A DNA stretch of 36,417 nt from positions 1-36,417 of the IMG/VR virus record IMGVR_UViG_3300028800_000053; one strand, 5' to 3'. The stretch is from a virus. Of this stretch, positions 4,466 through 16,732 are shown in pieces. A model generated the notes under the pieces. It was not told where the DNA came from and did not search any database. It was given only the letters and a program-made list of their open reading frames with translations. Position 1 is the first letter of the stretch, and every line of letters starts with the position of its first letter. The position numbers and the translations under genes are program-made.

Positions 4466-5152
4466 TTAACCTATGCATTTATTTTCCCCCGCTCTGTAGA
4501 CAAATTGCTTGCTCGGGCGCAAGTCGGGCCCTTTGATTTCCATAATCATCCATTCCTGAAAACGGGATGTTATGGCTTCGTCCAGATTGCTAGACAGCAC
4601 GTCCAAATTTAAATTGGAGGTAATGATCGTAGGCAATCCGCTGGTATATCTATTATCAAAAATTTCAAAATATTGGCGCTTAATGCGATCCGATCGGGTC
4701 TCGCGCCCCAGGTCATCGATGAATAATAAATCCGCCTCGGCCAGAGTATTTAAAATTTGCATATCTCCGGCGTCCAACAGGTTCTTAAGCAGGAGCGAGT
4801 CAAGCCTGGGACTGGTATGATATACCGGCCAAAAACGGGCCCGCTGGGTAAGCATCATCTCCCAAATCAAGGCGAAAGCATAATGCGTCTTGCCGACACC
4901 CACAGGGCCGTGAATAAATATGCTCTGGGGATTTTTGGCCCATTCCATGCCATAATCAACGCATTCCGCCGGAACATTTTTACAGTTATCCAACCGCGCC
5001 GAACGGAATTTCGCAGGGCAAATTTTATTATGAAACATATTCATTCTGGTCCGATAAAGCCACTCTTCACTCATCTTTTCTTTCGGGGAGGGGCGGACTG
5101 GTGAATGACATATCGGGGGCACGATGTTTTTTGACGGGTTTTGATTCTTCAT
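4466..5152 (-). CDS. DnaC-like AAA+ helicase loader
   Basis: The product has 228 residues. Walker A GPVGVGKT is at 82-89, Walker B LLFIDD at 142-147, sensor-1 TSN at 178-180 and a probable arginine finger AITSRF near 197. This is the DnaC/IstB type of AAA+ ATPase. In such phages it loads the host replicative helicase at the origin, the role of lambda P or of DnaC. It lies directly downstream of the initiator gene, overlapping it by 86 bases if the start at 5152 (GGAG 12 bases upstream) is used. A shorter start at 5074 would overlap by only eight bases but has a poor ribosome site. No helicase gene was seen in the genome, so the host enzyme is the likely partner. Confidence 0.88.
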   Translation of the reverse strand: MKNQNPSKNIVPPICHSPVRPSPKEKMSEEWLYRTRMNMFHNKICPAKFRSARLDNCKNVPAECVDYGMEWAKNPQSIFIHGPVGVGKTHYAFALIWEMMLTQRARFWPVYHTSPRLDSLLLKNLLDAGDMQILNTLAEADLLFIDDLGRETRSDRIKRQYFEIFDNRYTSGLPTIITSNLNLDVLSSNLDEAITSRFQEWMIMEIKGPDLRPSKQFVYRAGENKCIG

Positions 5153-6083
5153 AACGTCTTTTTTCTCCGTGTTGGGTAGGTTTAGGTCTCAGGACAAATT
5201 GTCCCCATAACTGGGCAAACTTTTCGCGTAGTTTAGCGGGAGAACGGATATTCACGCACCAAAAATGATCCTTAAATGTCTTATCTATAATTATTTGTAT
5301 CTCTTCAGGTGTGTGACCGTCCAGCCGTATCATGCGGTCGAACTCACGCATCCATCCCCGTAAGTCCGCCGGAATCTTGAGTTTTGGGTTGAAAGATAAT
5401 GCCTGGACGAAATGTTTCACCAGACGCTGCACGTCCGGAGAAAATTCATCTTTGGGAGGTTTATCCGGTGGATGCCTCGGAGGCGAAGGTTTCTTCCCCG
5501 AATCATCAGCGCGATCCAACCGATGGGGACAAAAATGTCCCTTCGTAAACATTTTTTTATTCTCCTCGGAATTTTTATTAGAATTCGAAAAGGGGGCAGC
5601 GCGATCCGAAGCCGAAGGCGAGGTCTCGCGCGTTTCTTTTTCTTTCTTAAGAACTATACCTACTAAACGGTTTGTTCTTTCTTTAGTGTCCCCGTTTTGG
5701 GGAAGCGGTACCGCGTCCCCGTTTTGGGGAAGCGGACGAAATTTTTTAAATTTAGGGGTCTCTGACACAAAGTACTCAACCCCTCCAAATTTACCCGTTC
5801 TTTTCTGTTCGCGATGAACGTAGCCGGCTGCAATCGCTTCGTTGATCGTACGGTAAACTTTATTTCGACCCCAGTGACCTTCCAATTCTTTGATAAGTTG
5901 CGCCGCTCTAATTACCCAATCTCCGGAATTCGAGAGCAGTCGAATAATCAGCCAACGGCAATCCGGAGAAATCGAATGATCTCGAATGAGAGCGTTCGAA
6001 ATCATTGTGTATGGATTTTCGGCATCATGAGGACAACGGCGAAAAGTCGATTCGTCAGCATTTTTTCCGCGGGGATTTATCAT
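5067..6083 (-). CDS. Replication initiator with winged-helix domain (lambda O-like role)
   Basis: The product has 338 residues. ATG overlaps the upstream stop (ATGA) and follows GGGGGG. Residues 20-100 form a winged-helix domain (PYTMISNALIRDHSISPD, GRNKVYRTINEAIAAGYVHR). A middle region of low complexity carries the repeat PLPQNGD twice, and residues 215-300 form a helical C-terminal domain (LRGWMREFDRMIRLDGHTPEEI, KLREKFAQLWGQF) like those of phage initiator or DnaD-like proteins that bind the loader. The gene order initiator then loader, and inverted repeats inside the gene, mirror lambda O-P. Function is inferred from this architecture. Confidence 0.78.
   Translation of the reverse strand: MINPRGKNADESTFRRCPHDAENPYTMISNALIRDHSISPDCRWLIIRLLSNSGDWVIRAAQLIKELEGHWGRNKVYRTINEAIAAGYVHREQKRTGKFGGVEYFVSETPKFKKFRPLPQNGDAVPLPQNGDTKERTNRLVGIVLKKEKETRETSPSASDRAAPFSNSNKNSEENKKMFTKGHFCPHRLDRADDSGKKPSPPRHPPDKPPKDEFSPDVQRLVKHFVQALSFNPKLKIPADLRGWMREFDRMIRLDGHTPEEIQIIIDKTFKDHFWCVNIRSPAKLREKFAQLWGQFVLRPKPTQHGEKRRYEESKPVKKHRAPDMSFTSPPLPERKDE
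5688..5735. repeat. Putative origin iterons inside the initiator gene
   Basis: Two identical 21-base units (5688-5708 and 5715-5735) lie 27 bases apart. Each contains TCCCCGTTTTGGGGA, a five-base-pair inverted repeat around GTTTT; on the gene strand it reads TCCCCAAAACGGGGA. AT-rich stretches flank both sides (5640-5686, and 5740-5756 with a run of T and A). Lambda iterons, also inside the initiator gene, have the same plan of TCCC and GGGA arms around a CAAAACG-type core. Looser relatives are at 5525-5541 (GGGAC...GTCCC) and 5196-5208 (GGACAAATTGTCC). Confidence 0.6.
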
Positions 6084-6445
6084 ATTTCATCCCCCCGTAA
6101 ATTCTCGATTTCTTTTTTTGATGGGTTTGACAAATTATAAACCACTCCGGATAAGTTGTTTTCATTCGTAACATGACGTTCTATATACCCATATTCCATC
6201 GCCTCGTTTACAAGCTCCCGGATTCGGTCGCGACCAATACGACCCTGATAGTGTTTTAGTAACGCTTCGGTGGATATATCCTCCTCTCCGCAATGCGAAA
6301 GAAGGTACGAAAGTAATGCGATACATTCGGGCGACATTTTTTTATGACGCAGAAGCGCAATCGGAAGCATCGCATAGGGACATTCCCCGTCGCTCTCACA
6401 ACGGCGAAATTCGCTAGAATCAAGATTTTCTTTACGAGATTTCAT
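6080..6445 (-). CDS. Winged-helix protein, paralogue of the initiator N-terminus
   Basis: The product has 121 residues from the ATG at 6445, which has GGGAGG nine bases upstream; a longer frame reaches further but adds a Cys-rich tail without a ribosome site. It aligns with the first 100 residues of the next gene: FRRC-x-D-x-E-PYxM, ALxR, SPxC, LLSxxGxxxI, GRxxxxxxxNEAxxxGYxxR. It lacks the repeat region and the C-terminal domain. It is probably a duplicated origin-binding domain that could modulate initiation or repress the operon. Confidence 0.72.
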   Translation of the reverse strand: MKSRKENLDSSEFRRCESDGECPYAMLPIALLRHKKMSPECIALLSYLLSHCGEEDISTEALLKHYQGRIGRDRIRELVNEAMEYGYIERHVTNENNLSGVVYNLSNPSKKEIENLRGDEI

Positions 6446-6474
6446 CAGATTTTGCCTCCCATCAAAAAAAGCGC

Positions 6475-6503
6475 TTGAACAAAAACGTTGTGGCGTGCAT
6501 AAT
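6475..6503 (+). promoter_or_regulatory. Candidate sigma70 promoter (TTGAAC-17-CATAAT)
   Basis: The -35 hexamer TTGAAC is at 6475-6480 and the -10 hexamer CATAAT at 6498-6503, with a 17-base spacer. It points away from the replication operon, and a terminator follows 34 bases downstream. Confidence 0.45.
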
Positions 6504-6509
6504 GGAAAG

Positions 6510-6578
6510 CACACGCACACACGTGGTTTTTGTTTGGTGGTTGAAGAGTTTGCAGCTCCTCAACCACATTTTTATTTT
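6510..6578 (+). ncRNA. Candidate small RNA of about 69 nt
   Basis: This is the interval between the expected start site of the 6475 promoter and the end of the terminator. It has no convincing reading frame. The 5' part is CA-rich (cacacgcacacacgtgg) and the 3' part is the terminator hairpin. It does not overlap a gene on the other strand, but sits in the leader of the divergent replication operon. Speculative. Confidence 0.3.
6537..6578 (+). terminator. Rho-independent terminator
   Basis: Stem GTGGTTGA (6537-6544) pairs with TCAACCAC (6560-6567), extended inward by GAG/CTC after one mismatch, with a seven-base loop, and followed by ATTTTTATTTT. The T-run is on the plus strand only. No plus-strand gene lies just upstream, so it would end the short transcript described here. 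Confidence 0.6.
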
Positions 6579-6645: not shown

Positions 6646-6674
6646 TTGACATAATTCCTGTCAGGGATTAAAGT
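6646..6674 (+). promoter_or_regulatory. Promoter with overlapping operator (TGACA-N7-TGTCA)
   Basis: TTGACA at 6646-6651, a 17-base spacer and TAAAGT at 6669-6674. The inverted repeat TGACA (6647-6651)...TGTCA (6659-6663) covers the -35 box and spacer. The same arms with six bases between them overlap the -35 of two other promoters, at 9817-9832 and 10447-10462. It probably serves the plus-strand genes from 6819. Confidence 0.6.
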
Positions 6675-6690
6675 TAGGTTATCTTTCTTG

Positions 6691-6735
6691 GCCCGCTGGA
6701 CAGATTGACCTCTTCCGCCAGCGGGCTTCTTCTTT
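6691..6735 (+). terminator. Terminator or attenuator in the 6819 leader
   Basis: Perfect nine-base-pair stem GCCCGCTGG (6691-6699) with CCAGCGGGC (6718-6726), an 18-base loop, then TTCTTCTTTT. It lies about 20 bases after the 6646 promoter, so transcripts would either stop at roughly 55 nt (a second small RNA) or read through into the gene at 6819. Confidence 0.6.
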
Positions 6736-6818
6736 TCATATCAGATGTTTATTTTGGCGTGTACAAAAAAATGCGCCCGACCTATCTTTGACGCAAATAC
6801 ACACCGATAGGAACGCAT

Positions 6819-7157
6819 ATGACCATTCAGAACGATCCCGAAGCCAAGGAGCGCTTAGACAGGTTTTTTATCCAAGTCAAAAAGTTGCAGGCTCTAGAAA
6901 ATTATTGCCGCTCCGGCAGGTTGAATCATGAGCCATACGTCCAGCTGCTCAAACAGTGCCTAGCCCGCGGTTGGCTCGGCGATGATGAAGAAAAATTTAT
7001 CGATCGGCTCATAGAAAGATACCAAATGGATTGGCGCACATGGTCCACAAAAATTTCCAGCGTCAAAAAACGTATGGCGGAGATGGAGATGGAAACGGTG
7101 CCCGCCAGACAGACCAAATATTGCGCCGCGCTGCTTCAAAAGGAACTGGGAATATGA
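6819..7157 (+). CDS. Small acidic/helical protein of unknown function
   Basis: The product has 112 residues, with AGGA six bases before ATG. It is almost entirely charged alpha-helix (AKERLDRFFIQVKKLQALENY, DDEEKFIDRLIERYQMDW) with no recognised motif. It is the first gene of a two-gene plus-strand unit lying between two minus-strand operons and behind a regulated promoter and attenuator. That position, next to the replication genes, suggests an early accessory or regulatory role. Confidence 0.65.
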   Translation: MTIQNDPEAKERLDRFFIQVKKLQALENYCRSGRLNHEPYVQLLKQCLARGWLGDDEEKFIDRLIERYQMDWRTWSTKISSVKKRMAEMEMETVPARQTKYCAALLQKELGI

Positions 7158-7507
7158 CCTTGGCGTTTTTATTGGGCATAACAATCAGCCATTGGTGCTT
7201 TAGCGCCTTTCTCTATTTTCGCCTGGGACGCATCTGGTCCCAACTAAACACACTCCAACGTAGATTAGATCAGTCATGTCGTACCCCATCGGCGCCCACA
7301 CCACAAAAAAAACAGCGGCCCCGCAGGACCGCCGAACAGAAAGTAAAAATGTCCCAAGCAGCAAAAGCCGCCTGGGATAAAAAGAAGGCTACCCAACCTG
7401 CTCTGACAGCCCAGGTGCCGAATCAAGCCACGCAACATATGACCCCCGGAACCGCGTCAAATATTGCGGATCCAACGCTTGCTCCACAATACGATGCATT
7501 GGAGTAG
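7154..7507 (+). CDS. Membrane-anchored basic protein
   Basis: ATG overlaps the upstream stop (ATGA). The 117-residue product starts with a transmembrane segment (MTLAFLLGITISHWCFSAFLYF), a short amphipathic part (WSQLNTLQRRLDQS), then a basic Pro/Lys/Arg-rich tail with RRTAEQKVKMSQAAKAAW, a motif seen in small phage and plasmid DNA-binding tails. The last 119 bases are antisense to the 3' end of the ERF gene. The anchor plus basic tail could tether DNA or a protein at the membrane; the function is unknown. Confidence 0.6.
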   Translation: MTLAFLLGITISHWCFSAFLYFRLGRIWSQLNTLQRRLDQSCRTPSAPTPQKKQRPRRTAEQKVKMSQAAKAAWDKKKATQPALTAQVPNQATQHMTPGTASNIADPTLAPQYDALE

Positions 7508-8054
7508 TTGAGTCCGCAGCCAACGATAAAATATAGCTATTCAGTGGGCCAGTATCAATACCTTCCGCATCCAACAAAATACGCAACGCATCAATATTCT
7601 GCTCCAACGTAGGCGGCTTGGGAACACGTGGCTTTTTTGGCGCAGCCGCCCCGTCCCGGACAACGATACTCTCCGCATCGTCATCCACGTCCGCCACAAC
7701 ACCCACGATCGCAGCTAATCCATAACGCCGCGTATACGTCATCGCCGCACCAATCCCCTGCGCGTCCATCTTAGCCGACAAAATGGGCGTAAAGCTGCGC
7801 ATCCATTGCCCGCTGCTATGACATAATGTCGTAACCATGTAATACGCGCCATCAATGGTGGCCGGACCCTGTACCACAGCCAACCCATTAGCGCTCAGCG
7901 CACCGCGACACGCCGACCATACGCTCGTAAGGTCCGCATACTTGCTCTTAAAGTACGGGTTGCTGCTGTCTTTGATCGCCGGGGTGATCTCCCCCTGCGC
8001 CTTAGCCAAGGCCGCCACCAATTCGTTGATCTGCTCACTCTGTAACTGTTCCAT
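7389..8054 (-). CDS. erf: ERF-family single-strand annealing protein
   Basis: The product has 221 residues, with GGAG seven bases before ATG. The N-terminal 140 residues carry the ERF pattern: INELVAALAKAQGEI, NPYFKSKYADLTSVWSAC, LSANGLAVVQGP, and AMTYTRRYGLAAIVGV followed by an acidic VADVDDDAES. ERF proteins anneal single strands during recombination-dependent replication and genome circularisation. Residues 150-221 form a separate helical tail after an Ala/Pro/Lys linker. It ends the minus-strand early operon and partners with the nuclease at 9868 and RusA at 12733. Confidence 0.9.
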   Translation of the reverse strand: MEQLQSEQINELVAALAKAQGEITPAIKDSSNPYFKSKYADLTSVWSACRGALSANGLAVVQGPATIDGAYYMVTTLCHSSGQWMRSFTPILSAKMDAQGIGAAMTYTRRYGLAAIVGVVADVDDDAESIVVRDGAAAPKKPRVPKPPTLEQNIDALRILLDAEGIDTGPLNSYILSLAADSTTPMHRIVEQALDPQYLTRFRGSYVAWLDSAPGLSEQVG

Positions 8055-8305
8055 TATTGATCTCCATAATCTGATTCAAAATCCGGCTCGGGTTCCTCAA
8101 ACTCACACCCACAGCCTGAACACACAAAACTTCCGCTCGACCAAAATGCATCGCCCGCGCATTCAAGGCACACACACGCATCATATTCCGCAACATAAAG
8201 GTACGACGGATCTAGTTGACTGTCTAACATATACCCACCAAATTCGTTAAATTCATTTTTTGAAATTAAATGTCTAAACAAATTTGTTGGTACTTCAACG
8301 GCCAT
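8054..8305 (-). CDS. Zinc-ribbon-like small acidic protein
   Basis: The product has 83 residues. CVCLECAGDAFWSSGSFVCSGCGCEFEE is a four-cysteine zinc ribbon in the second half (CxxC, 15 residues, CxxC), followed by an acidic end (PEPDFESDYGDQ). The stop overlaps the first base of the ERF start. The start at 8305 (GAGG close by) overlaps the upstream gene by 40 bases; an inner ATG at 8230 preceded by GGTGGG is a fair alternative and keeps the ribbon. Function unknown. Confidence 0.55.
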   Translation of the reverse strand: MAVEVPTNLFRHLISKNEFNEFGGYMLDSQLDPSYLYVAEYDACVCLECAGDAFWSSGSFVCSGCGCEFEEPEPDFESDYGDQ

Positions 8306-8514
8306 ACCTCACGGCAAATAAGACGAAACAATGTCGTGTGCGCCGCCATCTTCTCAAGCCACAAATCACGCTTACGCGTATTGGCCGGATCGGCTCTGTG
8401 CATCGCATACGCTTCATCCCACTCCGCTTCCGCAAATCGCAGAAGCTCCACCATGCGGGCCGTAAATTTGTTGATCAATTCGCGCTCTTGTGATATCTCT
8501 TGTGACATAATCAT
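8266..8514 (-). CDS. Small helical protein of unknown function
   Basis: The start at 8514 is chosen for GGAGG six bases upstream. The product has 82 residues, MIMSQEISQERELINKF then a charged helix (RMVELLRFAEAEWDEAYAMH) and LWLEKMAAHTTLFRLICREV. No known motif. It sits inside the early minus-strand operon where nearly every gene has a strong GGAGG site. Confidence 0.55.
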   Translation of the reverse strand: MIMSQEISQERELINKFTARMVELLRFAEAEWDEAYAMHRADPANTRKRDLWLEKMAAHTTLFRLICREVWPLKYQQICLDI

Positions 8515-8566
8515 GACTGACCTCCTATTGGTTTTGATTGACCCCGGCTGCAACCGGGGTGTTTGA

Positions 8567-8974
8567 TTACTTGCACTTGCCTTCCAAGGCGTCAAGGCGC
8601 TGTTGGACAGTGTCTATTTTTGCTGCTAAGCTCACAACCTGATCTGATAATTTGTTGTGTCCTTCAATCGCGTTGTGCAAATACTCCGACAACATCCGCA
8701 GGCCATCACGGTTTTTAATTACGCTATCACTCAAGTCGTCTAACCACTTTTCCATTGTCGGCAATATGGCCGTATCACCATCAGCTAATGTAGTTCGCAG
8801 GTCCCGAATGTCATCGTATAACAAGCCAATTGCCTTCCATTGCTTTTGATCGATCGTCATTTCATGGTCAGGGGTATTATCCCAAGGACGTGGCCCGTCT
8901 TTAGTCCACGCTTCTCCACAGGCCGTTCCCATCAAGGAACAGCCAACACACAACGTTAAGATAAATTTATTCAT
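8567..8974 (-). CDS. Secreted/lipoprotein-like coiled-coil protein
   Basis: The product has 135 residues, with GGAGG four bases before ATG. The N-terminus MNKFILTLCVGCSLMGTAC looks like a lipoprotein signal with a lipobox-like G-T-A-C. The rest is hydrophilic, with a coiled-coil end (HNKLSDQVVSLAAKIDTVQQ, RLDALEG). An anchored periplasmic coiled coil would fit a spanin-like or superinfection-exclusion protein. Its place in an early-type operon rather than a lysis cassette favours exclusion. The next upstream gene also has a lipobox. Confidence 0.6.
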   Translation of the reverse strand: MNKFILTLCVGCSLMGTACGEAWTKDGPRPWDNTPDHEMTIDQKQWKAIGLLYDDIRDLRTTLADGDTAILPTMEKWLDDLSDSVIKNRDGLRMLSEYLHNAIEGHNKLSDQVVSLAAKIDTVQQRLDALEGKCK

Positions 8975-8998
8975 ATGACCTCCAATTAGTGGTTAATA

Positions 8999-9286
8999 TT
9001 ATTTGTCCTTCTTGCCTTCCTTGAAACCTTCCATGTACAAGTCATCATCCAAGTACACCGGACGGCGCCCATTGATACCGGCATAATATCCGTCATCCCA
9101 GGCCTCGCAATCGGCTTGACCGCATTCATATCCCTCTTTCTGCGATTCGCTAGCCCAACGAGATGGTTCGCTTTCCTGTTCCCACGCAGATTCATACCCT
9201 TTGTCCCAGTCTTCACCACTACCGGTGCCGCATCCGGTAAAAAAACAAATGATGGCCAACGGAATCCATACGATATCCTCTTTCAT
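8999..9286 (-). CDS. Probable small lipoprotein
   Basis: The product has 95 residues; GGAGG lies seven bases before ATG, and ATGA overlaps the upstream stop. The signal MKEDIVWIPLAIICFFTGC ends in a lipobox-like F-T-G-C (Cys19), although the N-terminus lacks the usual lysines apart from one. The mature part is acidic and aromatic-rich (GEDWDKGYESAWEQES, WDDGYYAGINGRR, YMEGFKEGKKDK). Phage early lipoproteins are often superinfection-exclusion factors blocking receptors; that is inference here. Confidence 0.6.
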   Translation of the reverse strand: MKEDIVWIPLAIICFFTGCGTGSGEDWDKGYESAWEQESEPSRWASESQKEGYECGQADCEAWDDGYYAGINGRRPVYLDDDLYMEGFKEGKKDK

Positions 9287-9477
9287 ACTGTCACCTCCTC
9301 TGTGCTCTCAACGACTCCATTGACTTCCGTTAAGATCGCCAACCGCCTGACACGCTCGGCACCAAAACTGTTTAAGACAAAATTAATGGCCGCTTCCCGC
9401 GTCCGATGCGTATACCTGCTAATAGTGGGTAAATCGCCAACTATCCCGTATGCCGCCCTGTATCTTGTGCCTTCCAT
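9283..9477 (-). CDS. Small protein of unknown function
   Basis: Start at 9477 with GGAGGAGG upstream, giving 64 residues: MEGTRYRAAYGIVGDLPTI, then THRTREAAINFVLNSFGAER and a hydrophobic, acidic end (RRLAILTEVNGVVESTEE). The frame is open for 123 bases upstream, but those starts have no ribosome site. Its stop overlaps the next gene's start, so it is translationally coupled to the lipoprotein. It looks like a small alpha/beta protein. No family recognised. Confidence 0.55.
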   Translation of the reverse strand: MEGTRYRAAYGIVGDLPTISRYTHRTREAAINFVLNSFGAERVRRLAILTEVNGVVESTEEVTV

Positions 9478-9502
9478 TTTGACCTCCTCCATGTTTGTTT
9501 TA

Positions 9503-9706
9503 TTAGTTAACAATAAATTTATAGCCATACTTGGCCTCATGCAACGCCTCGTACCGATCCATAAAGTCTTGATCGGTCGCACAACGATAATTACAGACAC
9601 GGTCCGCTAATTCCTCGCCCATGAGGTTTACCGCCGCCTCAAACTCCACCGTCACCGTAGTCCCGCACTTACCGTTGGCATACACGTATGATTTATCTAC
9701 ACTCAT
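9503..9706 (-). CDS. Small protein of unknown function, first gene of the early minus operon
   Basis: The start at 9706 has GGAGGG four bases upstream. The 67-residue product (MSVDKSYVYANGKCGTTVTV, LADRVCNYRCATDQDFMDRY) has three cysteines and is mixed alpha/beta. It is the first gene after the promoter at 9804-9833, with a leader of about 90 bases. No family recognised. Confidence 0.55.
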   Translation of the reverse strand: MSVDKSYVYANGKCGTTVTVEFEAAVNLMGEELADRVCNYRCATDQDFMDRYEALHEAKYGYKFIVN

Positions 9707-9763
9707 TTTTCCCTCCATTCTAATTTTTTCTGTTTACATCACGCCGCTACAACTAGCCGATTT

Positions 9764-9781
9764 TGGTGGACCGGTCACCTA
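9764..9781. promoter_or_regulatory. Palindrome in the early-operon leader
   Basis: GACCGGTC (9769-9776) is a perfect eight-base palindrome flanked by GGTG and CACC arms. It lies just downstream of the expected start site of the 9804-9833 promoter, so it could be an operator or leader hairpin. Confidence 0.3.
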
Positions 9782-9803
9782 GGAGACTGACGTTGTTGGG
9801 CTA

Positions 9804-9833
9804 AATATAGCTGAAATGACATTAATCTGTCAA
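9804..9833 (-). promoter_or_regulatory. Early minus-strand promoter with operator
   Basis: On the minus strand, TTGACA (9828-9833) is followed 18 bases on by TATATT (9804-9809), or 17 bases on by CTATAT. The inverted repeat TGACA-TTAATC-TGTCA at 9817-9832 overlaps the -35. It drives the operon 9706 to 7389. Confidence 0.65.
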
Positions 9834-9867
9834 TCAAATGACGCGGATGGGAGAAAAAAAATTAAGA

Positions 9868-10425
9868 TTATGGCAGTTTGGCCGAGAAGAATTCGTCTAC
9901 AAGCGTTTCACACTGCGCCCACACGCTATCGTCACGCACATATTGACATATTTCCGGCAAATGCCCGTCGCGATCAAGTTTCAAGAACATAAACAGATCA
10001 GACACGTGATAATGATTGACGCTGAGCAGATATGCGTAAAAATGCGCTTGTAATGCCCACGCATCGTGATCAGCCCGCGCGGAGGTTTTGTAATCGCACA
10101 GCAGGAGGGTGCCCCGCCGCGTATCGGAAATGATAGCATCTATTTGACCTGTGATCATCAGCTTGTCGCAGTAGTATCTGCGTTCTGATTGGAGTATTAG
10201 GGGTTGGAAATATCTGCACCACACCCGGTAGGATTCGAAGTATCCCATGGCTTCCGGGGATAAATTTAGGGGCCGTCCGGCGTAGTCATCTGCGATCGCC
10301 TGATGTACCTCGGATCCTATGCGCGTTTTGCGCTCCAATACGCCGGGTGGTATTTTCGTAAAGTCTTTAGTTGAAGATAGTATGTCACTCACTCGAGCGT
10401 ACATTTTCCCATTATATTCCAACAT
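9868..10425 (-). CDS. PD-(D/E)XK family nuclease (recombination exonuclease-like)
   Basis: Start at 10425 with GAGGAGG upstream; 185 residues. The fold is visible: GSEVHQAI near 37-44, Glu82 in SERRYYCD, Asp96 in TGQIDAII, Asp111-Tyr-Lys113 in LLLCDYKTS, and the RecB-type QAHFYAYLL motif at 127-135. Such nucleases commonly resect double-strand ends to supply single strands for an annealing protein; here that would be the ERF protein of the next operon. It lies alone between the two operator-bearing promoters. A Cas4-like cysteine cluster is not seen. Confidence 0.82.
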   Translation of the reverse strand: MLEYNGKMYARVSDILSSTKDFTKIPPGVLERKTRIGSEVHQAIADDYAGRPLNLSPEAMGYFESYRVWCRYFQPLILQSERRYYCDKLMITGQIDAIISDTRRGTLLLCDYKTSARADHDAWALQAHFYAYLLSVNHYHVSDLFMFLKLDRDGHLPEICQYVRDDSVWAQCETLVDEFFSAKLP

Positions 10426-10445
10426 AATGTCCTCCTCGCAAACCG

Positions 10446-10474
10446 TTGACAATAACATGTCACATGATTATAAT
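10446..10474 (+). promoter_or_regulatory. Consensus promoter with operator
   Basis: TTGACA (10446-10451), 17 bases, TATAAT (10469-10474): both hexamers match the sigma70 consensus exactly. TGACA-ATAACA-TGTCA (10447-10462) overlaps the -35 and spacer. It drives the long plus-strand operon starting at 10500. Confidence 0.85.
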
Positions 10475-10499: not shown

Positions 10500-10790
10500 A
10501 TGGTATTTAAAGGAAAAATGACGCTGGCGCGTTGGCTATGGATGCACCATTTATCGGTGCCGCAATTCGAGGAGATGAGCGGCATACATAGGCGCACGAT
10601 CTATCGAATCCTGGAAGATATGGGATATCGTCCACGGGAGCGGGTGCGCAAAAGTGTGTACCTTGCCACGGGAGGTGAAGTGGTCATCGATGCCGAGGGT
10701 GGCTATCGCCCGCGAACAAAGACGATTATGAGACGGCTAAAACGCAACAACGATCTGTTATCTGAGGTAGGCGATGAAGGCGATCAATAA
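10500..10790 (+). CDS. Small helix-turn-helix protein, candidate early regulator
   Basis: The product has 96 residues; GGAGG lies four bases before ATG, about 25 bases behind the promoter -10. Residues 7-45 (MTLARWLWMHHLSVPQFEEM, SGIHRRTIYRILEDMGYRP) read as a helix-turn-helix of the Cro/XRE type. The rest is basic (RVRKSVYL, RPRTKTIMRRLKR). As the first gene of its operon, directly under an operator shared with two other promoters, it is the best candidate for the protein binding TGACA-N6/7-TGTCA. That is inference from position. Another helix-turn-helix gene follows. Confidence 0.65.
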   Translation: MVFKGKMTLARWLWMHHLSVPQFEEMSGIHRRTIYRILEDMGYRPRERVRKSVYLATGGEVVIDAEGGYRPRTKTIMRRLKRNNDLLSEVGDEGDQ

Positions 10791-11214
10791 TGATATTGTT
10801 TTTGAGACCGTACGCGAGTGTGCGGACTATGGTGGAGTGTGTCGGTCGGCAGTGCAAAAGCTTGTCGCGAATGGGCGTCTGAAACACACGCGTGTTGGGC
10901 GGGCGGTACACATATTGAGATCGGATTATGACGCGTATCGCGATGGCCGCTATAAGCGAAAGCCGCGCATAGACGGGGGCACATGTTTTACGATCGAAAA
11001 TGGATGGTACACAATCAAAGAGATGTCGGCGTACGCGACGAACCTGTTGGGTGAACGAGTCTCGGCGCAAAAACTTCATTTCCAATTGCGCACCGGACGT
11101 CTGAGAGCGCTGCGGGTACGTGGGGGATATGTTATCGCCGTGCATGATATGGAGGCATGGATTAACGCTTATGTCGCGGGCAAGCTAACAGACAGGAGGC
11201 TAAAGCATGGATAA
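10774..11214 (+). CDS. Double excisionase/MerR-type DNA-binding protein
   Basis: The product has 146 residues, overlapping the previous gene by 17 bases, with GAGG six bases before ATG. It has two similar winged-helix units: residues 8-56 (ETVRECADYGGVCRSAVQKL, GRLKHTRVGRAVHILRSDYD) and 75-135 (WYTIKEMSAYATNLLG, AQKLHFQLRTGRLRALRV, GGYVIAVHDMEAWINAY). Each follows the excisionase/AlpA layout of helix-turn-helix, basic wing (GRLKxxRVG, GRLRALRVRG) and a terminal D-x-x-A helix. Two such units in one chain would bind paired half-sites. It may act in transcription control. Confidence 0.65.
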   Translation: MKAINNDIVFETVRECADYGGVCRSAVQKLVANGRLKHTRVGRAVHILRSDYDAYRDGRYKRKPRIDGGTCFTIENGWYTIKEMSAYATNLLGERVSAQKLHFQLRTGRLRALRVRGGYVIAVHDMEAWINAYVAGKLTDRRLKHG

Positions 11215-16557: not shown

Positions 16558-16732
16558 CACGGTCGAATTGCGCGATATTTGCAACAAGATAGACGGGTTG
16601 CTAGACTGCGTTAGGCTGTGCGCAACCCATCCTGAAAGCGAAATACTGAGTCCGCACCAAAAAATAAATTATCTGATTGACATAATTTCTGAAAAAGTCC
16701 AAGTAGTCGAAAAAGCACTCCGAAACCATTGA
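16487..16732 (+). CDS. Unknown small protein ahead of terL
   Basis: GGAGG lies nine bases before ATG, inside the previous gene. The 81-residue product has a basic, disordered start (MSRKQEKAENSGLYTGLREE) and a helical remainder (ELRDICNKIDGLLDCVRLCA, HQKINYLIDIISEKVQVVEK). The 71-base overlap in a different frame is long for this genome, but both frames have good ribosome sites. Unknown function. Confidence 0.5.
   Translation: MSRKQEKAENSGLYTGLREEKRYSTVELRDICNKIDGLLDCVRLCATHPESEILSPHQKINYLIDIISEKVQVVEKALRNH

Follow-up and report, generated by a model that had tools for sequence, protein, structure and literature searches.

Three early promoters carrying a shared palindrome as the predicted targets of a phage-encoded Cro-like protein

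The early region of virus record IMGVR_UViG_3300028800_000053 (36,417 bases, analyzed in full and hereafter called the window) carries the palindrome TGACA-N6/7-TGTCA on promoters that face different genes, which raises the question of whether these sites form one regulon and which protein reads them. A preliminary description of the sequence had listed three sites and expected 0.03 by chance. A scan of the whole record confirmed the sites, with exact copies at 6647-6663 (N7), 9817-9832 (N6), and 10447-10462 (N6) and no others in the 36,417 bases. In dinucleotide shuffles, the mean was 0.08 copies, and 0 of 100 shuffles reached three. The chance figure of 0.03 holds for one spacing; allowing both spacings raises it to about 0.07. 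Based on the sequence comparisons below, we consider it quite probable that the 96-aa protein predicted at 10500 is a Cro-type early repressor that controls its own gene and that all three palindromes serve as its operators.

The palindromes had also been described as lying on good sigma70 promoters, and this was borne out: each copy overlaps a sigma70-type promoter (Table 1), at its -35 element and the first part of its spacer, with consensus scores of 12/12 (10446), 11/12 [9833(-)], and 10/12 (6646). These promoters rank first to third within the 4- to 13-kb stretch and are among the 16 promoters scoring at least 10/12 in the whole record. The promoter over 9817-9832 drives the minus-strand operon that ends at 7389, as proposed, with the operon given here as 9718-7389. 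The left arm, TGACA, is part of the -35 consensus; therefore, the right arm and the spacing are the informative part. When any 5-bp arm was allowed at neighboring spacings, about ten arms reached three to four copies in the record. Three copies of some 5-bp arm are not rare, and the weight of the finding lies in the positions of the copies on promoters. A palindromic -35 element was present in 3 of the 16 strong window promoters, compared with 0 among the 207 promoters of equal strength in related records, and among the relatives' promoters scoring at least 9/12, it occurred at a gap of 6 to 7 in 3 of 1,500. Looser matches to the motif (one or two mismatches) were not clearly above chance.

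Table 1. Early-region features of the window and nuclease-end palindromes of related phages
Feature	Position	Strand	Remarks
Operator c, TGACATAATTCCTGTCA	6647..6663	.	Exact motif, N7
Sigma70-type promoter, TTGACA-17-TAAAGT	6646..6674	+	10/12; under operator c
Intrinsic terminator	about 6690..6740	+	Directly 3' of the 6646 promoter; fold -21.7 kcal/mol, z -3.3
Weak promoter-like sequence, TGTACA-17-TATCTT	6760..6788	+	Probable own promoter of orf6819
Leftward operon terminators	7377-7352 and 7334-7313	-	
Remaining leftward operon	7389..9480	-	Some five small genes followed by the ssDNA-annealing protein Erf (7389-8054)
AcrIC5-like anti-CRISPR candidate, 71 aa	9503..9718	-	First gene of leftward operon, behind operator 9817
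Sigma70-type promoter, TTGACA-18-TATATT	9804..9833	-	11/12; for leftward 9718-7389 operon
Operator b, TGACATTAATCTGTCA	9817..9832	.	On leftward promoter (pL-like), directly beyond nuclease gene 3' end
PD-(D/E)XK (RecB/Cas4-like) nuclease	9868..10425	-	Divergent from Cro-like gene
Sigma70-type promoter, TTGACA-17-TATAAT	10446..10474	+	12/12; for 10500 and rightward early operon
Operator a, TGACAATAACATGTCA	10447..10462	.	On rightward early promoter (pR-like), between nuclease gene and Cro-like gene
Cro/YdaS-like HTH protein, 96 aa	10500..10790	+	Proposed regulator; SD GGAGG before ATG at 10500
HTH_17 (MerR/excisionase-type) protein	10774..11214	+	Second gene of rightward operon; conserved neighbor
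G011 palindrome past nuclease gene			AAAGGTAG-N-CTACCTTT
G021 palindrome past nuclease gene			TAAATGTAG-N-CTACATTTA
G013 palindrome past nuclease gene			CAAATGAT-N-ATCATTTG
G006 palindrome past nuclease gene			ATTATC-N6-GATAAT
G032 palindrome past nuclease gene			ACTGTA-N3-TACAGT

The record ends in a direct terminal repeat of 127 bases, so that its map is probably complete and circular. Its genes include a P22-type portal, Erf, RusA, the PD-(D/E)XK nuclease, and O-like and DnaC-like replication genes. We gathered 41 related loci via the portal and read 20 records entire or almost so. The early region had no BLAST hit among cultured phages, the portal is only about 22 to 24% identical to those of cultured phages, and a portal scan of bacterial genomes found no prophage; this is a phage family without any close cultured relative. 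Direct queries of viral contigs with the 10500, 10774, and nuclease proteins found no relatives because divergence is too high, and the relatives of the early-region proteins were recovered through the portal and synteny. The gene order was kept in the related records: O(-), orf6819(+), leftward genes(-), and nuclease(-), followed by the small HTH gene(+), the HTH_17 gene(+), and RusA(+). Neither an integrase nor an S24-type CI repressor (Peptidase_S24) was found above cutoff in the window or in 14 relatives, which favors a lytic program with Cro-type early shut-off and leaves room for a diverged repressor.

The 10500 gene is the first of the rightward early operon, a conserved slot. Its product, whose homology begins at the ATG at 10518, aligns with the small HTH proteins found in this slot in the relatives, at a divergent 17 to 31% identity. 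A profile built from this alignment hit a single copy in the window and one to two copies in each of the 14 relatives, and it matched G009 and G020, which were outside the alignment, in the same slot (E values of 2e-18 and 2e-20). A Cro-like gene was thus present in 14/14 scanned relatives and almost always occupied this slot. The family profile also matched the Escherichia coli YdaS/Cro structures 8co2 and 8c7k (E value, 2-3e-8). The AlphaFold model of 10500 has lambda-repressor-like helices with a pLDDT near 90 over the HTH, and its VIA structure matches included YdaS, 434 Cro, and P22 C2, which have lambda-repressor-type DNA-binding folds (Z about 6 to 7). Foldseek with the same model gave E values above 0.1 throughout, and the assignment of a lambda-repressor-like HTH fold is based on the profile match and the VIA matches. 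Searched alone, the 10500 sequence gave weak HTH scores, and none of the Pfam or NCBIfam models matched it above cutoff. Because no Peptidase_S24 domain and no integrase exceeded cutoff in the window or the 14 relatives, we call this protein Cro-like only and not the Cro of a lysogeny switch. The proposal of a small regulon with the 10500 HTH protein as its best candidate regulator thus gained support from the comparison: the protein is Cro/YdaS-like and holds a conserved slot, and operator positions are paired in the relatives.

The preliminary description had proposed scanning related phages for the motif; the exact TGACA-N6/7-TGTCA was absent from 36 related records. We rejected this absence as a refutation, since different palindromes occupy the same places there; the positions are kept and the sequence is not. 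Several relatives have strong palindromes directly beyond the 3' end of the nuclease gene, the place of window site 9817 (Table 1), with a shuffle p of at most 0.003 for G011, G021, and G013. The best second match to the G011 palindrome, genome-wide, was the promoter of its small HTH gene (the place of window site 10447), and in G013, that promoter was the sole other close match. For 12 relatives, we took the best palindrome past the nuclease gene and searched for it in the promoter region of the HTH gene. The combined result was a Fisher p of 3e-7 (8e-6 against windows of matched G+C), with 5 of the 12 not significant individually, and own-phage operator pairs exceeded swapped pairs in 200,000 of 200,000 permutations. 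When palindromes were instead taken from the Cro promoter region and repeats were sought in the relatives, little emerged beyond the G013 pair. Further, G006 (L070) carries a third operator copy, ATTATCGCAAACGATAAT, at 37493-37521 (-) in record coordinates, on an 11/12 promoter (TTGACA-17-GATAAT) that precedes a small leftward operon within the rightward early region. Because of this third copy on another promoter, the window is not alone in having a predicted regulon of three promoters. The recognition helix of the Cro-like protein correlated with the operator at a level that is only suggestive (Spearman 0.43, p 0.05, 21 nonindependent pairs). As a separate observation, a plus-strand intrinsic terminator (G+C-rich hairpin and T run) adjoins the nuclease-end palindrome in G006, G011, G013, and G034; because it adjoins the leftward promoter, it also lies within the 5' leader of the leftward mRNA.

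We weighed three other explanations for the palindromes. Coincidence, with the left arm supplied by the -35 consensus and the right arm adjoining by chance, is the least probable of them. Three-copy palindromes of some 5-bp sequence are expected in such a genome, and the looser matches showed no enrichment, both of which fit coincidence; it was already disfavored by the frequency of palindromic -35 elements in the strong window promoters compared with the relatives and by the relatives' independent possession of matched palindromes at the same two places. It is also very unlikely that the phage is temperate and that Cro and a CI-type repressor both read the sites as common operators in a lysogeny switch. 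The divergent early promoters, together with the Cro-like, O-like, and DnaC-like genes, do recall the layout of a lambdoid immunity region, but it is a nuclease gene rather than a repressor gene that diverges from the Cro-like gene, and neither an S24-type CI repressor nor an integrase exceeded cutoff in the window or the 14 relatives.

Somewhat less improbable, yet still unlikely, is a real operator whose main ligand is another protein, either the HTH_17 protein (10774) or a host repressor. The 10774 protein has a clear HTH_17 domain (E value, 2.7e-12) and is also conserved beside the site, and the weak HTH scores of 10500 when searched alone favor another ligand as well. HTH_17 proteins of this type are usually of the excisionase or MerR-like kind, for which binding to simple palindromes is not a requirement, and we counted this against 10774. 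The variation of the operators from phage to phage argues against one conserved host factor, and it is the Cro-like gene that lies directly behind operator a and is present in every relative scanned (14).

We next consider the genes that the Cro-like protein would control, beginning with the leftward operon. Its first gene probably encodes an anti-CRISPR protein of the AcrIC5 type, judging from a match to PF22147 (E value, 4.2e-10; 40 bits, curated cutoff of 27) and from a phmmer alignment of 43 residues to the solved AcrIC5 (PDB 7yhr; E value, 4.7e-5). AcrIC5 homologues are spread over several phyla (PMC7913775). In this phage group, the candidate was absent from the 36 relatives, so that the window is the only 1 of 37 records to carry it. 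Repression of acr operons by Aca proteins acts at an inverted repeat located within the core promoter (PMC9410906), and palindrome 9817-9832 likewise overlaps the -35 element and spacer of a promoter, the one followed by the AcrIC5-like gene. The predicted circuit thus resembles Aca control (PMC9410906, PMC9410881) in pairing an HTH repressor with the strong early promoter of an anti-CRISPR operon, a promoter that requires shut-off and whose core contains an inverted repeat. It differs in that acr-aca operons carry aca downstream in the same operon, whereas here the regulator lies in the divergent operon about 0.8 kb away and also has predicted sites on other promoters. The 10500 gene lies outside the acr-like operon, in the opposite one, and we did not class its product as an Aca.

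Site 6647 required a revision. The 6646 promoter had been described as directed toward 6819; however, an intrinsic terminator lies between them, and orf6819 has its own promoter-like sequence at 6760-6788, a place at which several relatives have a promoter-like sequence too. The 6646 promoter probably yields a short RNA (about 6681-6740) and not the orf6819 mRNA. Because of the terminator and the separate promoter-like sequence, direct control of orf6819 by site 6647 is less likely than control of this short RNA or of an attenuated transcript. The site has a spacing of N7 versus N6 at 9817 and 10447, and no counterpart was seen at the corresponding place in the relatives examined; it is a presumed member of the regulon. 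Elsewhere in the window, 16677-16692 (+), just 5' of the terminase gene, reads TTGACATAATTTCTG, which repeats the left part of operator c (TTGACATAATTCCTG) without the right arm.

A second small RNA was observed nearby. At 6475-6577 (+), a promoter and an intrinsic terminator define an OOP-like RNA divergent from the O-like gene, and such an RNA of about 70 to 110 nt is also present in ten relatives (G030, G008, G011, G021, G031, G034, G006, G033, G032, and G020). Like lambda OOP RNA (PMC5869508), it is a short, terminated, divergent RNA just ahead of the O gene. Unlike lambda OOP RNA, in several relatives it contains a same-sense copy of 9 to 14 bases from the O-mRNA leader of that phage, and the window gave no Rfam match. 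The likeness between a phage's own O leader and its own OOP-like RNA exceeded that of swapped pairs in 20,000 of 20,000 permutations (longest word, p = 2e-5), with a weak signal in the window itself. Antisense pairing of the RNA to the O ribosome-binding site was not adopted to explain the shared leader sequence, as own-phage pairing was not above cross-phage pairing. For most of these phages, folding predictions place the Shine-Dalgarno sequence of the O-like mRNA in the paired part of a leader hairpin [window leader, about 6440-6510 (-)]. The window has two adjacent O-like genes, at 5067-6083 (-) and 6080-6520 (-), with similar N-terminal parts. Both match one single O gene in G008 and in G021, and for this reason they seem to be a partial duplication.

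Returning to the Cro-like protein as the reader of the three palindromes, we propose the following course. Host RNA polymerase would fire all three strong early promoters together, presumably with no need of an activator, given the strength of their sequences. The 10500 repressor would then build up from the rightward transcript that starts at 10446. Its dimer would cover the -35 element and spacer at TGACA-N6/7-TGTCA, a palindrome of 16 to 17 bp whose arm centers are about one helical turn apart, and could so block the -35 element in the manner of Cro. Shut-off would extend to its own promoter (10446), to the 9833(-) promoter of the leftward operon from the AcrIC5-like gene to Erf, and to the 6646 promoter of the short terminated transcript. 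Across the family, operator sequences would differ from phage to phage, each fitting the Cro-like protein of the same phage. In this scheme, we infer the dimeric binding, the repression rather than activation, and the timing.

Footprints of YdaS cover 18-bp palindromes that lie over the promoter of its own gene and over the opposite one (PMC8630535). The proposed regulator resembles the Cro/YdaS proteins of lambdoid phages (e.g., CP-933P YdaS, 8co2, and 8c7k) as a small lambda-repressor-like HTH protein encoded by the first rightward early gene, with a palindrome on the promoter of that gene and one on a further early promoter. In contrast to those systems, no CI partner or integrase was found in this phage, single palindromes lie on separate promoters instead of tandem arrays of three or four, and sequence identity to 10500 is very low. 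Beyond the window, we offer as a tentative and rather doubtful generalization that in these apparently virulent podoviruses, which lack CI and integrase, one Cro-like protein serves as the global early shut-off of its own operon, an acr-led operon, and a short noncoding RNA beside the replication genes, with operators that have coevolved in each phage.

What began as a conjecture from the bare sequence is now a regulatory circuit that can be put to the test, in phages without a close cultured relative. The predicted circuit would join early shut-off of the Cro type to the kind of control that Aca proteins exert on anti-CRISPR operons. Because the repressor sequence and the palindromes at the two shared places differ from relative to relative, these phages offer a natural series in which repressor and operator may be followed as they change together.
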